A DNA stretch of 64,000 bases from Limisphaerales bacterium. Its GTDB lineage: Bacteria; Verrucomicrobiota; Verrucomicrobiia; Limisphaerales; SXTU01. The translations under genes and the position numbers were made by a program. This document shows, one piece after another, positions 39,625 through 47,585 of the stretch. The notes under the pieces are model-generated. The model searched no databases. It saw only the letters and a list, made by a program, of their open reading frames with translations, and was not told the origin of the DNA. Numbering within the stretch: position 1 is the stretch's first letter; every line of letters starts with the position of its first letter. The DNA lies in the NCBI GenBank assembly GCA_009773355.1, contig WRPG01000017.1, positions 1 through 64,000 on the forward strand, written 5' to 3'.

Positions 39625-42480
39625 TCTTTGTCCGCCCCAAATCTTTGGGTCTTCCTCTTCCTCCTCACCGCCACCACCGCCCCCGCCGCGCCGCGCACGC
39701 CGTGGACCACCTCGCGCGTCACCGGCTCGCCGAACCCGCCCGCGCCTTTCACCGTCGAGCGCGTCTTCCCGCAGCGCAACTTTGACCGCCCCGTCGAGTT
39801 CATGCGTCAGCCCGGCAGCGACCGCTGGGTGGTGCTGCTGGAGGGTGGAAAACTCCTTTCCTTCCGTCCGAGCGACGCCGGCACGAACACCGACCTCGCC
39901 CTCGATTGCCGGGAATTCCGCTCCGCCGCCCGGCCCATCGGCTTCACCTTTCACCCCGGCTTCGCGACCAACCGCTTCGTCTTCGTGAACCACAACGAGG
40001 GCTACAACCGCGAGCACGGCGCGCGCGTCTCGCGCTTCACCGCCTCCTCGCTCGACCCGCTGCGCCTCGACCCCGCCAGCGAGCGGCCCATCATCTCGTG
40101 GCTCGGCGGCGGCCACAACGGCTGCACGCTCGTCTTCGGCTCCGACGGGATGCTCTACCTCTCCACCGGCGACGCCGCCGAGCCGGACCCGCCCGACGGC
40201 TTGCGCAAGACCGGCCAGGACATCTCCGACCTGCTCTCCGCCATCCTGCGCATTGACGTGGGCCGCACCGAGGGCACGAACAATTACGCCGTGCCCAAGG
40301 ACAATCCCTTCGTCACCACGCCCGGCGCGCGCGGCGAGGTCTGGGCGTTCGGCTTCCGCAACCCGTTCCGCACCGCGTTCGGCCCGGACGGCATGTTGTG
40401 GGTCGGCGACGTGGGCTGGGAGCAGTGGGAAATGATTTTCCGCGTGAAGCGCGGCGGCAACTACGGCTGGGCCATCACCGAAGGCCCGAACACCCGCGTT
40501 CGCACCGACGTGAAGCCCGGCCCCGGCCCCATCCTGCCCGCCATCGTCGCCATCCCGCACAGCGAAGGCGCGAGCGTGACGGGCGGGCGCTTCTATCGCG
40601 GGAAGAAGTTTCCCAAGCTCAACGGCGCTTACATCTACGGCGACTGGGAGACCGGCAAGTTCTGGGCGCTCCGGCACGACGGCGACAAGCTGCTCTCCAA
40701 CACCGAGCTGTGCGACACCGTGCTCAAGCCCGTCTCCTTCGCCGAGGACGCCGACAACGAGCTGCTCATACTCGACCACCAAGGCGGCATCTACCGCTTC
40801 GTGCCGAACCCCGCGCCGCCCGCGAACCAGGCCTTCCCGCGCAAGCTCTCCGAGACCGGCCTCTTCGCCTCGCTCAAGCCCCTCGCGCCCGCGTCCGGCG
40901 TCGAGCCTTACGCGCCCGCCGCTCCGATGTGGAACGACGGCGCGGTCGCGCAGCATCACCTCGCCATCCCCGGCGACGGCGTCATCGCCACCACCAACGC
41001 GCGCAAGGTCATCTCCGGCTTCATGTGGCATTTCCCAACGGACACCGTCCTCGCGCGCACGCTCACGCTGGAGATGAAGCGGGGCGACCCCGCCAGCGCC
41101 CGCCGCATCGAGACGCAGCTAATGCACTTCGACGGCCAAGGCTGGAACCCTTACACCTACCGCTGGAACCTCGCGCAGACCGATGCCGCGCTCGTTCCCA
41201 GCGAGGGCGCGAGCGACATGTTCAACGTGACCGACGCCACCGCGCCCGGCGGACGCCGCGAGCTGGCGTGGCGCTTCCACAGCCGCTCCGAGTGCCTCCG
41301 CTGCCACAACGCGTGGGCGAGCGAAACCGTCGGCTTCAACTGGCTGCAACTCGGTGCAGCCAGCTACGCCCCCGCGAAGGGCGAAACCACCGCCGCACCC
41401 AGCGAGTTGCGCCGCCTTGAAGAGCGTGGCCTCATGCAGGTGAGCGGCCTGCCGAAGAACCTCGCCCGCCTCGTCAACCCGCACGACACCGCGCAACCGC
41501 TCGAAGCCCGCGCCCGCTCGTGGCTGCACGCCAACTGCGCCGCCTGCCACCGCAACGGCGCAGGTGGAGCCGTTCCGTCGCACCTGAACATTGACAAGAA
41601 GCTCGACGCCGCCCGCGTCGTGGACGCGAAACCCACGCGCGGCGACTTCGGCCTACCCGACGCGCGCGTCATAGCGCCGGGTTGGCCCTATAGCTCCGTG
41701 TTGCTCTGGCGCATCGCGACGGAAGGCGTGGGGCGCATGCCGATGACTGGCTCGCGGACGGTGGACGAGGCGGGGGTGCGGTTGATGCGAGACTGGATTT
41801 CACAACTTAAGGCAGCGCAAAGCAACCCAGAGCCAAACGTTGCCGGTGATGGAGATTTGTTCGCGCACATGGACAATCCACTCAAAGTCGCATTAACCCT
41901 GAATGACTTAGGACCAAGACCCCGAAAGGAAATAGCTGCATCCTCTCTTCGAGTCACCAACGCCCTTGCCCGCGACCTCTTCCAGCGCTTCCTCCCGCCC
42001 GAGCAACGCCGCCGCACGCTCGGCGCGGACTTCGCCGCGTCCGAAGTGCTCGCGTTGCGCGGCGATGCCAAGCGCGGCAGCGCCGTCTTCGCCAACGAGT
42101 CCGGCGGCCAGTGCGTCCGCTGCCACCGCGCCCACGGCGCGGGCCGCGACTTCGGCCCCGACCTCACCGACATCGCCCGCAAATACGACCGCGCCACGCT
42201 GCTCACGCACATCACGCAGCCGAACCTCCTCGTCGCCCCCGAGCACCGCACGCACTCGGTCCTGCTCCGCGACGACACCGAACTGACCGGCTTCCTCAAG
42301 TCGCGCACGCCCGCCGAGCTTCTCCTCCGCCTCGAAGACGGCACCGACCGCCACGTCCCCGCCGCGCAAGTCGCGACCACCCGCGAGTCCGCCCTCTCCG
42401 CGATGCCGGACGGCCTCCTCGCCGCGCTGACGGCACAGGAAGCCGCCGACCTTTTGGAGTTCCTCCTGTCCCACCCGTAA
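39571..42480 (+). CDS. Exported triheme protein: sugar-dehydrogenase-like propeller plus cytochrome c segments
   Basis: A 969-residue exported protein. A signal segment (NLWVFLFLLTATTAPA) precedes a PQQ-type glucose/sorbosone dehydrogenase beta-propeller (about 60-410; GGHNGCTLVFGSDGMLYLSTGD, RGEVWAFGFRNPFRTAFG, GNYGWAITEGPNTR). Then come three CXXCH haem sites: C575 (CLRCH), C656 (CAACH) and C848 (CVRCH), the last inside a PVC-type haem-binding domain with GRDFGPDLTDIA. It should oxidise a sugar or similar substrate and pass electrons to haems. The start is uncertain: ATG 39571 lies in a hairpin, TTG 39619 or 39628 would place the signal peptide nearer, and the frame stays open back to 39250 through repeat sequence. 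Confidence 0.85.
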   Translation: MGTNESPTRHSFVPIRLPSLSAPNLWVFLFLLTATTAPAAPRTPWTTSRVTGSPNPPAPFTVERVFPQRNFDRPVEFMRQPGSDRWVVLLEGGKLLSFRPSDAGTNTDLALDCREFRSAARPIGFTFHPGFATNRFVFVNHNEGYNREHGARVSRFTASSLDPLRLDPASERPIISWLGGGHNGCTLVFGSDGMLYLSTGDAAEPDPPDGLRKTGQDISDLLSAILRIDVGRTEGTNNYAVPKDNPFVTTPGARGEVWAFGFRNPFRTAFGPDGMLWVGDVGWEQWEMIFRVKRGGNYGWAITEGPNTRVRTDVKPGPGPILPAIVAIPHSEGASVTGGRFYRGKKFPKLNGAYIYGDWETGKFWALRHDGDKLLSNTELCDTVLKPVSFAEDADNELLILDHQGGIYRFVPNPAPPANQAFPRKLSETGLFASLKPLAPASGVEPYAPAAPMWNDGAVAQHHLAIPGDGVIATTNARKVISGFMWHFPTDTVLARTLTLEMKRGDPASARRIETQLMHFDGQGWNPYTYRWNLAQTDAALVPSEGASDMFNVTDATAPGGRRELAWRFHSRSECLRCHNAWASETVGFNWLQLGAASYAPAKGETTAAPSELRRLEERGLMQVSGLPKNLARLVNPHDTAQPLEARARSWLHANCAACHRNGAGGAVPSHLNIDKKLDAARVVDAKPTRGDFGLPDARVIAPGWPYSSVLLWRIATEGVGRMPMTGSRTVDEAGVRLMRDWISQLKAAQSNPEPNVAGDGDLFAHMDNPLKVALTLNDLGPRPRKEIAASSLRVTNALARDLFQRFLPPEQRRRTLGADFAASEVLALRGDAKRGSAVFANESGGQCVRCHRAHGAGRDFGPDLTDIARKYDRATLLTHITQPNLLVAPEHRTHSVLLRDDTELTGFLKSRTPAELLLRLEDGTDRHVPAAQVATTRESALSAMPDGLLAALTAQEAADLLEFLLSHP

Positions 42481-42517: not shown

Positions 42518-45500
42518 TTACTCCCGCAGCCAGGCGAGGAGGTCCGCCATCGCCGGCGGCGGGAGCGCGGCTTCCAGACCCTCGGGCATCAGGCTGAGGG
42601 GCGACGGGCGCAGGGTCTTCACGTTCGGACGCAGCAGCTTGTCCTTCACGCCGTTCGCCTGCGCCAGGGTGAAGCCGGTGGCGGTCTCGTCGGTGACGAG
42701 GCCGGTCAACGCTCGGTCGTCCTTCGTGTCCACGTTGTAGGCGATGTAGCGCGGTTCGATGGCGGCATTCGGGTCGAGGATGGCGGTGAGGAAATCGCCG
42801 ACGGGCTTGGTGCGGAAGGTCGCGAGGTCCGGGCCGAGCGCGTGGCCGAGGCCGCGATAGGCGTGGCAGGCGGCACAGCTCGCGGTGAAGAGCGCGGCTC
42901 CCTTCTTGGCGTCGCCCTTGAGCGAGGGGACGGTTGCGTAGCTCGCGAGCACGGTGGCGCGCGAGGCGGTCTGCTCGGGAAAGAGTTTGACCACGCGCGC
43001 CTTCGTCGCGTCGCTGCCGTGCCAGCGGAGGCGGTTGCGCGTGGCGGGCGGAATCTCCGCGAGGCCGACCACGCCGCGCTCGACGGCGTTGAGGAGCGAC
43101 TGGGTCCACGACTCCTGGCTCGCGAGCAGTTCCACGACGGCGGGCCGCGTCGCGACGGGCAGCGCGGCCCACTGCGCGAGGATGAGTTCGTCCGTCCCCG
43201 CCCAGCGGCGCGTGCGCAGCGTGGTGAGCGCGACCTGCTGCAACGCATCGCTCGCCGGCGGCACGAGCAGGCCGGCGACGATGGGGGCGTCGGCGTCGGG
43301 ACGGTTAAAGCCGCGCCCCAGCAGTGGCACGGACGCCCGGCGCGTGGCGTCGGAGGACTTCGGGCTGGCGGCGAAGGTGCGGGCGTCGGCGTAGAGTTGC
43401 TCCAGACGCTTCACGGCGGCGCGGATTTCGGTGCTGGGCGACGCAGTGAATTTGGTCAGCGCAAGCCCGCGAGTGTCGAAGGCGTCCTGCAACGCGGTCA
43501 TCGCGTAGAGCTGCCATTGCTGCGTGCGCTTGCCTTCCGCCGGGGCGAGCGCGGTGAGCAGCGACGCGAACTCAGTGTCACTCGCCGACGCGGACGCGGT
43601 AGCAATGAGCTGGCCGAGGAACTCGTTGCGGCCCGGCGCGGTGGCGGGCGCGGTGACGGCGACCTTGAGCAACTCGCCGGTGCGGCCCACGGCTCCGCTG
43701 AGGATGGCGGCGCGCTGGTAAGGGTCGCCCATGCCCTCGCGGGCGAGTTGCGCGAGCACGGCGGTCGCACGCGGGTCGCTCCATGTGCCGAGAGTGAAGG
43801 CGAGCTGGTAGCGGACGGTGGGGTCGCGCTCTTCAACTCGATTGAGCAAGGCACGCTGGCTGAACTCGTCAGTGGCGAGGCGAGGTTCGAGCAGGCGCAA
43901 TGCAAAACGCCGAACCGACGGATGGGGGTCGTTCAACGCACGAAGCAGCAACGTGTTTTCCACAGTCCAGTCTTGATCAGGAACACGGGGCTTGGTCACA
44001 AAGCTGACCGCCGCAGCAATGGCTCGCGGTTCAATCCATTCATTCAGCAGCGCCAATGCCTGCAAACGCACTGTCGGGTTCGGTGAGGAGCCGAACAATT
44101 GTGCCAGTTCCGCTTCGGTAGTCGGGTCGGCGCGATGCAGCAGCTCCCGATGCACCAGGTCGCGTGCGACGCCGTTCTCAGTATTCAGTGCGGCGACAAC
44201 TTGCGCGGTCGTCAGCTTGGTCAGGTCGTTGAAGGGCCGGAGCTTCGCTCCTTGCGGGTAGATGCGGTAGATGCGGCCCTTGTCCGAGCCGGCGCGCACG
44301 TCGAGCGTCTTCAGCCGGTCGGGTGGAATCCAGCGCGGGTGCTCGATGACGAAGCGATACATGTCCACGACCCACAGCGCACCGTCGGGACCGGTGAGCG
44401 CCTGCACGGGGCGGAACCAGTTGTCGGTGCTCGCCAGAAACTCGGACTGAACTTCGTCGGCGGCACGGGCGGCGGTGAAGGTGACGCCGTTGGGCGTGAG
44501 CACGAGGCGGCGGACCAGGTTGTGCACCGGCTCGCAGACGAAGAGGTTCTGGCTGAAGCCCGCGCCCAGCAGTGTGTCGCGATACACGCCCAGGCCGCAG
44601 GCGCTCGTGACGTGATTCAGCGACTGCGGGCTGTTGAAGCGCTCCAGCGGCGTGCTGACGGGGTTCAAGCGCGCGAGGCTGGCGGCGAGGTTCACGCTCG
44701 GCGGCGGCGCGGGGACGTGCGGGTTGCGCGCGAGGTAGCGGTCGGGCAGCGGGTAATGGTAGGCGAAGGTGCTGTTGTGGCAGCCGAACCAGTTGCCGAA
44801 GTCGTCGCGCGCGCGGCCCTGCTGCGTGAGGCCGGACGTGGCCTCGAACTCGCCGGTGTCGGGCCGGAAGCGGAAGTCGCGGCCGCGGATGTTCACCGCC
44901 TTGGTAGCAGCCGACGTGAGGAGGCTCTGACTGGTTGGCGATTGCCGATTGGCGATTGCCGATTCTGAAGTGAGACTCCTCACGTCGTCTCCTACGGCGA
45001 TGTCGCCGCCGAGCAAGCCGTTCGCGCCGTGGACCCAGTTGTCGAGGCCGAGGGAGAGGCTGTTCACGCGGGCCTGGTAGTTGTTGGTTTCAAAACCCGT
45101 GTAGAGCTTGCGCACCACGTCGGCCTTGCCGTCGCCGTTCGTGTCCTCGGCGTAAATGATGTCCGGCGCGGCGCAGATGAGCGCGCCCTTGCGCCACGCC
45201 ATCACTCCGGTCGGGAACGGCAGGCCGTCGAGGAAGAGTGTGGCGCGGTCGAACGGGCCGTCGGGCCGCGAGCGGGTGAGGGATTTTACGCGGCCGCCGG
45301 GCTTCCAGTTGCCATCCGAGCCCATCGGATAATCGGCCATCTCCACGACCCACAGCTTGCCGTCGGTGCCGAAATCAATCGCGACGGGGCTGGTGACGAG
45401 CGGCTCGGCGGCGACAAGCTCGATGGTGAGGCCGGGCTTGGTGCGGAGGGTGGCGAGGGAGTCGGTCGGGGACTTCGGAGGCGGGTTGCCCGTGCCGGCT

Positions 45501-47038
45501 AGCGTTGTGCCGGCGGTTTGCAACCGCCGCTCGGGCGTGCTGCTCGCCGCAGACGGCGATTGCAAATCGCCGGCACGGGGGGCGGTTGCAGCCGGGGCGT
45601 TGGTGGTCTTCGACACGAAGTCGCGCGGCAACAACTCGTGAGCCGCGCCAACGATTTTGTTCTCCAAGCCCGGCGCGAATTTCGTGGGCCGGTCGTAATA
45701 GACCATCGCGCCGCCGGCTTCGTAGCCGCCTTCCTGCAGGATGCGCTCGCTCGGGATGTAGCACGGGGCGTCGTTCGCGTAGCCGTGAACCCACAGGCGC
45801 GTGCTGTCGAACTCGCGCTTCAGCCGCAGCCCGTAGTCCACGACCACTTCGCCGGGCAGGAAGACCAGCGCGAGGTTCGTGCCGAAGTGCCAGGTCTGGA
45901 TGAGATACGGCAGCTTCGTTGGGAGCGTTTCGCCGCGGTCAAGGCGCGTGAGGTTTTTCTTCGCGTGATACGAAATCTGCTGCGCCTTGTTCGTCGCGAG
46001 TGCCTCCCACTCGGCGCGCGTGGGGAGATTGTCGAAGTCGAGTGCGATGCGCTTGGTGCGAGCCGTGGGCGTGGTGGGAAGCTCCTTCCACGAGCCGGGG
46101 AAAAGGCGTTTCACCTCGTTGGCGATTTGGCCGCCGAGCGCGTCGGCCAGGTCCGGCGTGCCGCGCTTGTTGGGGTTCTGGTCCGCGCCGCAGCCGATGG
46201 CGACGAGGCCGATTGCGCCGGGATGGTCGGCTTCGAGTGCGAGTTGTGCGGAGCCGGCCCAGTCGCCGTGAACTGTGTTCAGCCCCAGCGTCACGCAATG
46301 ACACGCGTAGCTCACAAAGACCGCGCGCACGATGCCTTCCGGCGCGACGACACGCAGCACGGGGAGGTCGTGGTCCACGGGCGCAATGGGGCGGGCGCGC
46401 CGGTTCATCGCGAAGCCGACCTTGCCCTGCGTCCACTCGACGCGGCTGGGCCGGCGGTCGGCGAGCGCGGCGCGGATGACTTGCTCCAGCTTGAAGGTCA
46501 GCTCGCGCGTGTAGCGGTCCACACGCGACTGCTGGTCGGGCGAGAGGTCGGCCATGAAGATGTTCGGCGCGACGCCCGCGATCATCGGAGCGGAGTGCGT
46601 GTGCGAGGAGCAAATGGCGAGGCGGTCGTGCGTGAGGCGCGTGTTGGCGAGGCGGCGGAGCAACTCGGTGCGGATGGCGTCGGACACGCCGAGGTTGTCC
46701 ACGGTGACGAGCACGGCGGGGCCTTCCGCATCGGTGCCGATGGCAAGGGCCTTCGCGTGGATGCGCTGTGCGACACCCTCGGACTCGGTCTTGCGCACGG
46801 CGAAACCGGTAAGCCGGATCGGATAGTCCGGCGTGATGTCCACGCGCGCGACGCCGACGCTGGGGAGGCGCCGGGCGGTGGCGTGCCGCACAGCGCAGGC
46901 GGCGAAGAAACAGAGCACCGCGAAGGCGAAGGCCAGCGCGCGTGCCGGCGATTTGGAATCGCCGCTCGTGGCGCTGACGGACGCTTCAGACGGCGGTTGC
47001 AAACCGCCGGCACGGGGCGCGGGAGAGTCGGAGTTCAT
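42518..47038 (-). CDS. Fusion of a neutral-ceramidase-like domain and a PVC-type haem dehydrogenase
   Basis: A 1506-residue exported protein. A signal or lipoprotein leader (ALAFAFAVLCFFAAC) follows a repeat-derived N-terminus (residues 9-33). Residues about 45-470 resemble the neutral/alkaline ceramidase N-domain (ARVDITPDYPIRLTGFAVRK, LAICSSHTHSAPM, YACHCVTLG). A repeat-encoded linker (488-511) joins this to a TIGR02604-type dehydrogenase propeller (LTIELVAAEPLVTSPVAIDFG), then HEAT-like repeats, and a C-terminal haem segment C1388 (CAACH) with LGPDLATF. A REP-like insertion occupies 681-712. This is either a true fusion or two formerly separate genes joined by repeat insertion. Function: lipid hydrolase plus redox module, untested. 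The start at 47038 is the best initiator after the repeats. Confidence 0.83.
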   Translation of the reverse strand: MNSDSPAPRAGGLQPPSEASVSATSGDSKSPARALAFAFAVLCFFAACAVRHATARRLPSVGVARVDITPDYPIRLTGFAVRKTESEGVAQRIHAKALAIGTDAEGPAVLVTVDNLGVSDAIRTELLRRLANTRLTHDRLAICSSHTHSAPMIAGVAPNIFMADLSPDQQSRVDRYTRELTFKLEQVIRAALADRRPSRVEWTQGKVGFAMNRRARPIAPVDHDLPVLRVVAPEGIVRAVFVSYACHCVTLGLNTVHGDWAGSAQLALEADHPGAIGLVAIGCGADQNPNKRGTPDLADALGGQIANEVKRLFPGSWKELPTTPTARTKRIALDFDNLPTRAEWEALATNKAQQISYHAKKNLTRLDRGETLPTKLPYLIQTWHFGTNLALVFLPGEVVVDYGLRLKREFDSTRLWVHGYANDAPCYIPSERILQEGGYEAGGAMVYYDRPTKFAPGLENKIVGAAHELLPRDFVSKTTNAPAATAPRAGDLQSPSAASSTPERRLQTAGTTLAGTGNPPPKSPTDSLATLRTKPGLTIELVAAEPLVTSPVAIDFGTDGKLWVVEMADYPMGSDGNWKPGGRVKSLTRSRPDGPFDRATLFLDGLPFPTGVMAWRKGALICAAPDIIYAEDTNGDGKADVVRKLYTGFETNNYQARVNSLSLGLDNWVHGANGLLGGDIAVGDDVRSLTSESAIANRQSPTSQSLLTSAATKAVNIRGRDFRFRPDTGEFEATSGLTQQGRARDDFGNWFGCHNSTFAYHYPLPDRYLARNPHVPAPPPSVNLAASLARLNPVSTPLERFNSPQSLNHVTSACGLGVYRDTLLGAGFSQNLFVCEPVHNLVRRLVLTPNGVTFTAARAADEVQSEFLASTDNWFRPVQALTGPDGALWVVDMYRFVIEHPRWIPPDRLKTLDVRAGSDKGRIYRIYPQGAKLRPFNDLTKLTTAQVVAALNTENGVARDLVHRELLHRADPTTEAELAQLFGSSPNPTVRLQALALLNEWIEPRAIAAAVSFVTKPRVPDQDWTVENTLLLRALNDPHPSVRRFALRLLEPRLATDEFSQRALLNRVEERDPTVRYQLAFTLGTWSDPRATAVLAQLAREGMGDPYQRAAILSGAVGRTGELLKVAVTAPATAPGRNEFLGQLIATASASASDTEFASLLTALAPAEGKRTQQWQLYAMTALQDAFDTRGLALTKFTASPSTEIRAAVKRLEQLYADARTFAASPKSSDATRRASVPLLGRGFNRPDADAPIVAGLLVPPASDALQQVALTTLRTRRWAGTDELILAQWAALPVATRPAVVELLASQESWTQSLLNAVERGVVGLAEIPPATRNRLRWHGSDATKARVVKLFPEQTASRATVLASYATVPSLKGDAKKGAALFTASCAACHAYRGLGHALGPDLATFRTKPVGDFLTAILDPNAAIEPRYIAYNVDTKDDRALTGLVTDETATGFTLAQANGVKDKLLRPNVKTLRPSPLSLMPEGLEAALPPPAMADLLAWLRE
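44903..44997. repeat. REP-like element inside the ceramidase-dehydrogenase gene
   Basis: Left arm starts GTAGCAGCCGACGTGAGGAG (44904-44923) and right arm (about 44969-44995) gives the opposite strand of CGTAGGAGACGACGTGAGGA. The inner part holds GATTGGC, GATTGCC, GATTGGC, GATTGCC in 7-base steps. It encodes VGDDVRSLTSE and more, in frame. Confidence 0.93.
45507..45576. repeat. Inverted repeat encoding the linker between the two fused domains
   Basis: Arms 45507-45529 (GTGCCGGCGGTTTGCAACCG start) and 45554-45576 match at 21 of 23 positions. On the gene strand it reads AGDLQSPSAAS...RLQTAG. Further copies lie at 46942-47013 and 53211-53281. Confidence 0.93.
46942..47013. repeat. Inverted repeat in the N-terminal codons of the ceramidase-dehydrogenase gene
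   Basis: Arms 46942-46964 and 46991-47013 are of the GTGCCGGCGATTTG family. It encodes the residues just before the leader peptide and is read in frame. Confidence 0.9.
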
Positions 47039-47106
47039 ATTGCGGCAGTGCGGGCAGTGTTCGTGCGAGGCCGTCAAAGTCAACGCGGGAGACGGCGGGG
47101 AGGCGG

Positions 47107-47178
47107 CTCGACATTCCAAGGTCGAGTGCGGCAGCGCTGGCAGCACGGGCAGATCTCGACATTGGAATGTCGAGCTAC
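47107..47178. repeat. CTCGACATT palindrome pair, copy 1
   Basis: CTCGACATTCCAAGGTCGAG (47107-47126) and CTCGACATTGGAATGTCGAG (47155-47174), themselves nearly palindromic, in the gap between the fusion gene and a small lipoprotein gene. Confidence 0.93.
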
Positions 47179-47585
47179 TGGCGCGGGCGCGCGCTTGCCT
47201 TGCCAATCCGCTGCATCGTCGCGTTCCAGTCCAGCGGTTTGCCGTCCGGACCGAGCGGAATCGCGGAGATGTATTTGCCTTTGAGCAACTCTTCCCAAGC
47301 CATCGCCGGGCGCTCGTGGACATTGTAGAATTTGGTGAGGGCTTGCTGCACGCTGGCATCCACCGGATAGATGACCAGGGGCGGTTCGGTGCGGCGGACG
47401 GCTGGTCCGGCAACCGGGATGCCGGCGGGCGGCGCGGCAGTGGCCGGGGTGGCCGCTGATGCGGGTGCAGCAGTGGTCGGGTCCGGCACGGAGGGCGCGG
47501 CGGTTTCTACTTTCTTTCTCCGGCAGGCGTCGAGCAACGGGACCGCCAGCAGCAGAGCGAGCGCGGGGATGGAAAAGATTTTCAC
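47175..47585 (-). CDS. Small lipoprotein paired with a pseudopilin
   Basis: A 136-residue lipoprotein. The leader MKIFSIPALALLLAVPLLD ends at a lipobox LLDAC. An Ala/Pro/Thr-rich linker (about residues 25-70) precedes a compact domain with ALTKFYNVHERPAMAWEELLK and GKYISAIPLGPDGKPLDW. The pattern parallels the lipoprotein at 22542-22856 (helix, P/A-x-x-EL, xYxxxxP, PxGK). It follows directly (45 bp) behind a pseudopilin gene on the same strand, as in the other case. Its 3' end overlaps the CTCGACATT repeat. Function unknown; an accessory of pseudopilin-like fibres is a reasonable guess. Confidence 0.78.
   Translation of the reverse strand: MKIFSIPALALLLAVPLLDACRRKKVETAAPSVPDPTTAAPASAATPATAAPPAGIPVAGPAVRRTEPPLVIYPVDASVQQALTKFYNVHERPAMAWEELLKGKYISAIPLGPDGKPLDWNATMQRIGKASARPRQ

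Follow-up and report, generated by a model that had tools for sequence, protein, structure and literature searches.

The fused gene and its repeat-coded segments

The window analysed here is a stretch of 64,000 nucleotides from a Limisphaerales bacterium of the phylum Verrucomicrobiota (genome G000; contig WRPG01000017.1), the minus strand of which carries, at 42518–47038, an open frame of 1506 amino acids uniting a ceramidase-fold domain with a PVC-type haem-binding protein. From the N-terminus, a signal/lipobox-like segment is followed by a neutral-ceramidase-fold domain (45611–46867; residues 58–476, from Foldseek and profile evidence), a linker, a DUF7133/TIGR02604 beta-propeller (44252–45472), HEAT repeats (43700–43951; about residues 1030–1113 in Pfam) and a TIGR02603 haem-binding domain (42524–42916) with the CxxCH motif CAACH at residues 1388–1392. 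Pfam further assigns Ceramidase_alk to residues 61–270 (E 2.1e-12), DUF7133 to 523–929 (E 2.9e-144) and cytochrome c to 1377–1425, while the NCBIfam models TIGR02604 (PVC-type heme-binding CxxCH protein) and TIGR02603 (haem-binding domain; residues 1375–1505) score 233.8 and 110.9 bits against curated cut-offs of 122.2 and 68.15, respectively. The two-part frame, with HEAT and haem segments, that a sequence-only reading had proposed is borne out by these matches. With its C-terminal 1000 residues passing both NCBIfam models, the protein resembles other PVC-type heme-binding CxxCH proteins (TIGR02604, TIGR02603, DUF7133), but has in addition an N-terminal domain of ceramidase fold, a feature common among such proteins. 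The convergent gene beside it (39628–42480) likewise codes for a multi-domain c-type cytochrome/PQQ-dehydrogenase-like protein that includes a TIGR02603 domain.

Three inverted repeats lie within the fused gene, at the codons to which the same reading had assigned them. The junction repeat (45507–45576; 70 bp) has 23-nt arms (45507–45529/45554–45576) that are 91% complementary, and encodes residues 488–511, RAGDLQSPSAASSTPERRLQTAGT, in the inter-domain linker; a 72-bp repeat at about 46942–47013 (arms 46941–46964/46991–47014) encodes residues 9–33, between the ATG and the hydrophobic signal segment; and a 92-bp repeat at 44904–44995 (arms 44904–44927/44972–44995) encodes residues 681/2–712, in a loop of the propeller. 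Chance does not account for them: matches to the arm pattern with up to three mismatches number eight in the window, against 0.03 expected. All three are inverted dimers of REP elements, drawn from two families, one tagged GTGC (residues 9–33 and 488–511) and one carrying the terminal tag GTAG (residues 681/2–712). A fourth REP-type dimer, of another GTAG-tagged family (GTAGCTCGACATTCCAATGTCGAG), occupies 47106–47178 on the minus strand, between the fused gene and the upstream gene at 47175–47585, to which its GTAG supplies the TAG stop codon; the provision of TAG stop codons by GTAG REPs has been described previously (PMC3733652).

The N-terminal start is placed at the ATG at 47038, upstream of the first repeat, so that residues 9–33 are coding only if this ATG is the start used. 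A home-made codon-usage caller favoured the GTG at 46891; the ATG and its upstream context are kept in the relative G004 and on contig C82 of assembly G046 (G046:C82).

Fold and conserved residues of the N-domain

The 1506-residue protein was modelled in two parts. Among solved structures, the N-domain model (pLDDT 87.4) convincingly matches neutral ceramidases only: Foldseek comparison with 2zws, 2zxc and 4wgk gives E-values of 1.7e-21 to 2.9e-20 and TM-scores of 0.72–0.75 normalised by query, and a profile search matches the solved ceramidase relatives at E 1.8e-16, although phmmer with the N-domain alone found no solved relative. Taking the zinc-site ligand set of neutral ceramidases to be His/His/Glu/Tyr, the likely zinc residues are H146/H148, H247, E397 and Y427, each present in at least 47 of 48 alignment rows, with the Glu and Tyr equivalences resting on motif; the residues of the candidate zinc site are invariant or nearly so. 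The catalytic serine of neutral ceramidases sits in a GDVSPN-type motif, for which the motif-based counterpart in the N-domain, a stretch that HMMER left unaligned, is GADxNP, with alanine (19), glutamine (16) or serine (12) at the variable position. Given this variation where the serine nucleophile would be expected, ceramidase activity should not be assumed. The N-domain therefore shares with neutral/alkaline ceramidase (2zws, 4wgk) its fold and the conserved His, Glu and Tyr of the likely zinc site, but differs in that the serine nucleophile position is, by motif, not conserved, and the C-terminal part of the enzyme is replaced by the propeller-haem protein.

Age of the fusion

Whole-genome and GTDB-species searches for both domains in one open frame recovered the same domain order and frame in 47 loci besides that of the window, across Verrucomicrobiota and Planctomycetota, with the isolate Paludisphaera soli among them. 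The part of the alignment corresponding to residues 466–535 spans 70 residues in the window protein, 65 in G004 and G046:C82 and 56 in a further relative, G007, and is 26–42 residues long in the remaining 44 of the 48 fused proteins, which have no repeat-coded peptide there (median of all rows, 35). The fusion is hence old, widespread in Planctomycetes and Verrucomicrobia, repeat-free in most lineages, and predates the repeats.

An alternative origin, offered by the sequence-only reading, was that the fusion arose when insertion of the junction repeat eliminated the stop and start separating two adjacent genes. The exact placement of the repeat at the junction lends itself to this account, as do six loci at which the two parts sit side by side as individual genes, their order unchanged, an arrangement that the same reading had suggested seeking in relatives. 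Five of these (L164, L173, L177, L181 and L170) belong to an Opitutae-type group, and in some the stop of the ceramidase-like gene overlaps the start codon of the DUF7133-haem gene (ATGA), the second gene then opening with its own signal-like segment. The account is nonetheless ruled out, and retains next to no probability, by the 44 fused relatives in two phyla that have no repeat, the very finding that had been named in advance as counting against it; G007, moreover, is fused yet bears another repeat family in its linker. In a maximum-likelihood tree (54 rows, 1417 columns), one deep change is enough to set fused proteins apart from split ones (SH-aLRT 100), a topology which, being midpoint-rooted, is compatible with one fusion or one fission; the window protein groups with its three nearest relatives in a single clade, borne on a long stem. 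What survives of the earlier interpretation is its second option, a loose linker within an old fusion: the repeat-coded segments are extra, those at the junction and in the propeller are modelled as disordered, and the linker of G007, a species from the genus of the window, carries another repeat family.

The disorder is seen in an AlphaFold model of residues 440–960 built with 28 homologues (pLDDT 79.7), in which the propeller resembles PQQ sugar dehydrogenases, and pLDDT falls below 50 at residues 475–517 (the junction insert and its surroundings) and 686–711 (most of the propeller-loop insert); on this model, both inserts are disordered segments.

Two high-copy REP families

Genome-wide counts derive from pattern searches and about 125 sampled sites, in a genus represented here by metagenome assemblies only. 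In the genome of the window, the GTGC arm pattern occurs in 88 exact copies, against none for the reversed-pattern control, and the GTAG element in 274 copies with up to one mismatch, likewise against none. The GTGC consensus is GTGCCGGCG(R)(Y)TTGCA(R)(Y)CGCCG, each arm being itself a hairpin, with GTGC at the outer end; 64 of 104 copies carry CGTC at their inner end, and each of the three bases before the element (−3 to −1, giving CCC) is C in 64–80% of copies. Its arms of 23 nt fall within the 20–40 bp of short, high-copy REP palindromes, and its dimers, mostly of 70–73 and 95–96 bp with spacers of 24–50 bp, within the 20–100 bp spacing of inverted REP dimers; both families fit the published description of REP elements and their dimers (PMC3733652). 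As to the terminal GTAG or CGTC tag of REP elements, the element at 44904–44995 ends in GTAG, and the junction family has its CGTC, where present, on the inner side, with GTGC outside. Among 56 genomes searched, the GTGC element is limited to the genus of the window, save for one contig each in G033 and G046. No clean empty site was found that gives exact insertion boundaries or target duplications.

REP elements are linked in other bacteria to RAYT tyrosine transposases (PMC3733652). The genome of the window encodes three Y1_Tnp genes: one, RAYT-like (C27:210177; L083), is flanked on both sides by inverted GTAG/CTCGACATT REP pairs of a further family, and is with them a candidate autonomous REP unit; another (C27:165344) is bordered on one side by the GTAG/ACGTGAGGAG dimer. 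None of the three lies next to GTGC elements, and a search for a RAYT gene belonging to that family found none; that a RAYT moves the junction family is therefore an inference.

Intragenic copies and a reading-frame bias

Trained on the window, a simple gene caller based on codon usage placed 18 of 68 sampled GTGC-REP sites in the genome of the window within genes that are clearly coding to either side of the insert, and a further 5 where the flanks are weaker; for the other genomes of the genus and the G033 contig the figures are 15 of 57, and 7 weaker. Intragenic sites thus make up about a quarter to a third of the total and involve some 20 other genes; since 87% of the window counts as coding by this caller, genes are struck less than their length predicts, yet often. 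Pfam domains lie across or flank the insert in an MFS transporter, an M20 peptidase, UvrB and a UvrD-like helicase.

The 23-base consensus arm contains no stop in any of its six frames, and intragenic dimers have four to six open frames. One frame is nonetheless strongly favoured: among sense arms with strong flanks, 15 of 17 in the genome of the window and 14 of 15 in relatives are read as RAGDLQSP/RAGGLQPP (29/32 in all), and 27 of 30 remain when two UvrB copies shared by descent are set aside (P 1.7e-10 against one third). Purifying selection on the encoded peptide would explain this preference. It could partly stem from target-site choice as well; that insertion-site preference and codon-phase composition, instead of selection, produced the bias altogether is unlikely, if well short of negligible. 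GC-rich genes have phase-specific base composition, and the C-rich positions preceding most copies would suit a sequence-dependent target, but the CCC may simply belong to the element, and the inserts of the fused gene sit in disordered or loop positions, as expected under selection.

Repeated colonisation of the linker

The junction repeat varies among relatives, with the first arm intact and the second eroded in both G004 and G046:C82. The linker of G007 has no GTGC element, and holds instead a 25+17+25-nt dimer of another palindrome, GGAGCACGGACGCCCACGTCCGTAG, the 15-base core of which occurs in 109 copies in G007 and 58 in the genome of the window; the same inter-domain linker has therefore been colonised at least twice, by different REP families. 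Of the other inserts, the N-terminal one (residues 9–33) is present as a single arm in G004, and that at residues 681–712 is absent from both G004 and G007.

A functional role for the junction dimer, in which an mRNA hairpin would pause ribosomes between the domains, aid folding or tune the amount of full-length protein, appears very improbable. At the domain boundary the mRNA strand is predicted to form a very stable hairpin (−51.7 kcal/mol; z −6.5 relative to shuffled sequences), and settlement of one linker by two REP families in different species might hint at a benefit; a repeat-lengthened linker is, however, present in only 4 of 48 fused proteins, and erosion of the distal arm in G004 and G046:C82 means that the hairpin is not conserved.

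Assembly G046 belongs to another family, and its only exact GTGC-REP lies in the linker of the fused gene, which raised horizontal transfer tagged by the repeat as a candidate explanation. The contig (G046:C82; L231) has a GC content of 65.6% against 56.9% at the G046 rpoC locus, and a neighbouring gene on it is 84–95% identical to genes of the window's genus; because of this mismatch and this identity it is probably misbinned from that genus, and transfer was rejected.

A model for REP insertion into an old fusion

We favour, at a probability of about 0.9, an old repeat-free fusion into which REP dimers were later inserted at three sites within one Verrucomicrobiota genus, lengthening disordered segments. 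Under this model, the ceramidase-fold and PVC-type haem proteins would have been joined early, without repeats; non-autonomous REP elements, presumably RAYT-type mobile palindromes, would later have entered the gene as inverted dimers just past the start codon, in the inter-domain linker and in the propeller loop. As the GTGC arm is stop-free in all frames and one frame yields a hydrophilic Gly/Pro/Ser-rich peptide, insertions in that frame at tolerant loops would persist, and those at other sites or in other frames would mostly be lost. The outcome would be longer disordered segments, the extended linker being near-neutral, without a new domain or a new fusion.

More tentatively, and with the balance against it, the genus may host a palindromic lineage suited to intragenic life, REP colonisation serving as a steady source of new disordered linkers; if so, REP-derived disordered linkers reach many proteins, including repair enzymes and kinases. 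The locus corrects the tempting story that a repeat makes a fusion, and offers an example of coding palindromes beyond Rickettsia that is clear and can be counted, with one gene holding three inserts from two families and a related gene holding a third family in the same linker, in which the frame preference can be used to test selection against target choice.

Relation to known coding palindromes

Coding REPs are already known from Rickettsia and Opitutus terrae, and the elements of the window belong to that kind. Those of Opitutus terrae and others (PMC3733652; 2013) are likewise high-copy short palindromes, often dimers, inside genes, coding for 20–30 residues, with uvr and recombination genes among their hosts and, for Opitutus terrae, in the same phylum. 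The junction family differs in its GTGC outer and frequent CGTC inner ends and in its strong, counted preference for a single frame; in the window, moreover, a single gene holds two of its dimers together with one from a second family. Rickettsia palindromic elements (Ogata 2000 and 2002, reviewed in PMC10969869) are also palindromic mobile DNA lying in-frame in unrelated genes and encoding a recurring peptide, and the GTGC elements similarly lie in-frame in functional ORFs as one recurring peptide; Rickettsia elements measure about 150 bp in that review, against 23-bp arms in dimers mostly of 70–96 bp here, and the likeness drawn is one of behaviour.

Individual host genes show further arrangements of the GTGC-REPs. 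The UvrB genes of three genomes of the genus (L011, L261 and L274) share one inherited insert (RAGDLQSP), located after QTIYVSATPAPRELEWAKASAR. A UvrD-type helicase gene (L215) carries two 96-bp REP dimers, at residues 312–344 and 739–771, and two kinase genes (L208 and L210) have REP dimers at the same point, after HPNIV.VH.FGFA and immediately ahead of the section that matches the kinase domain.
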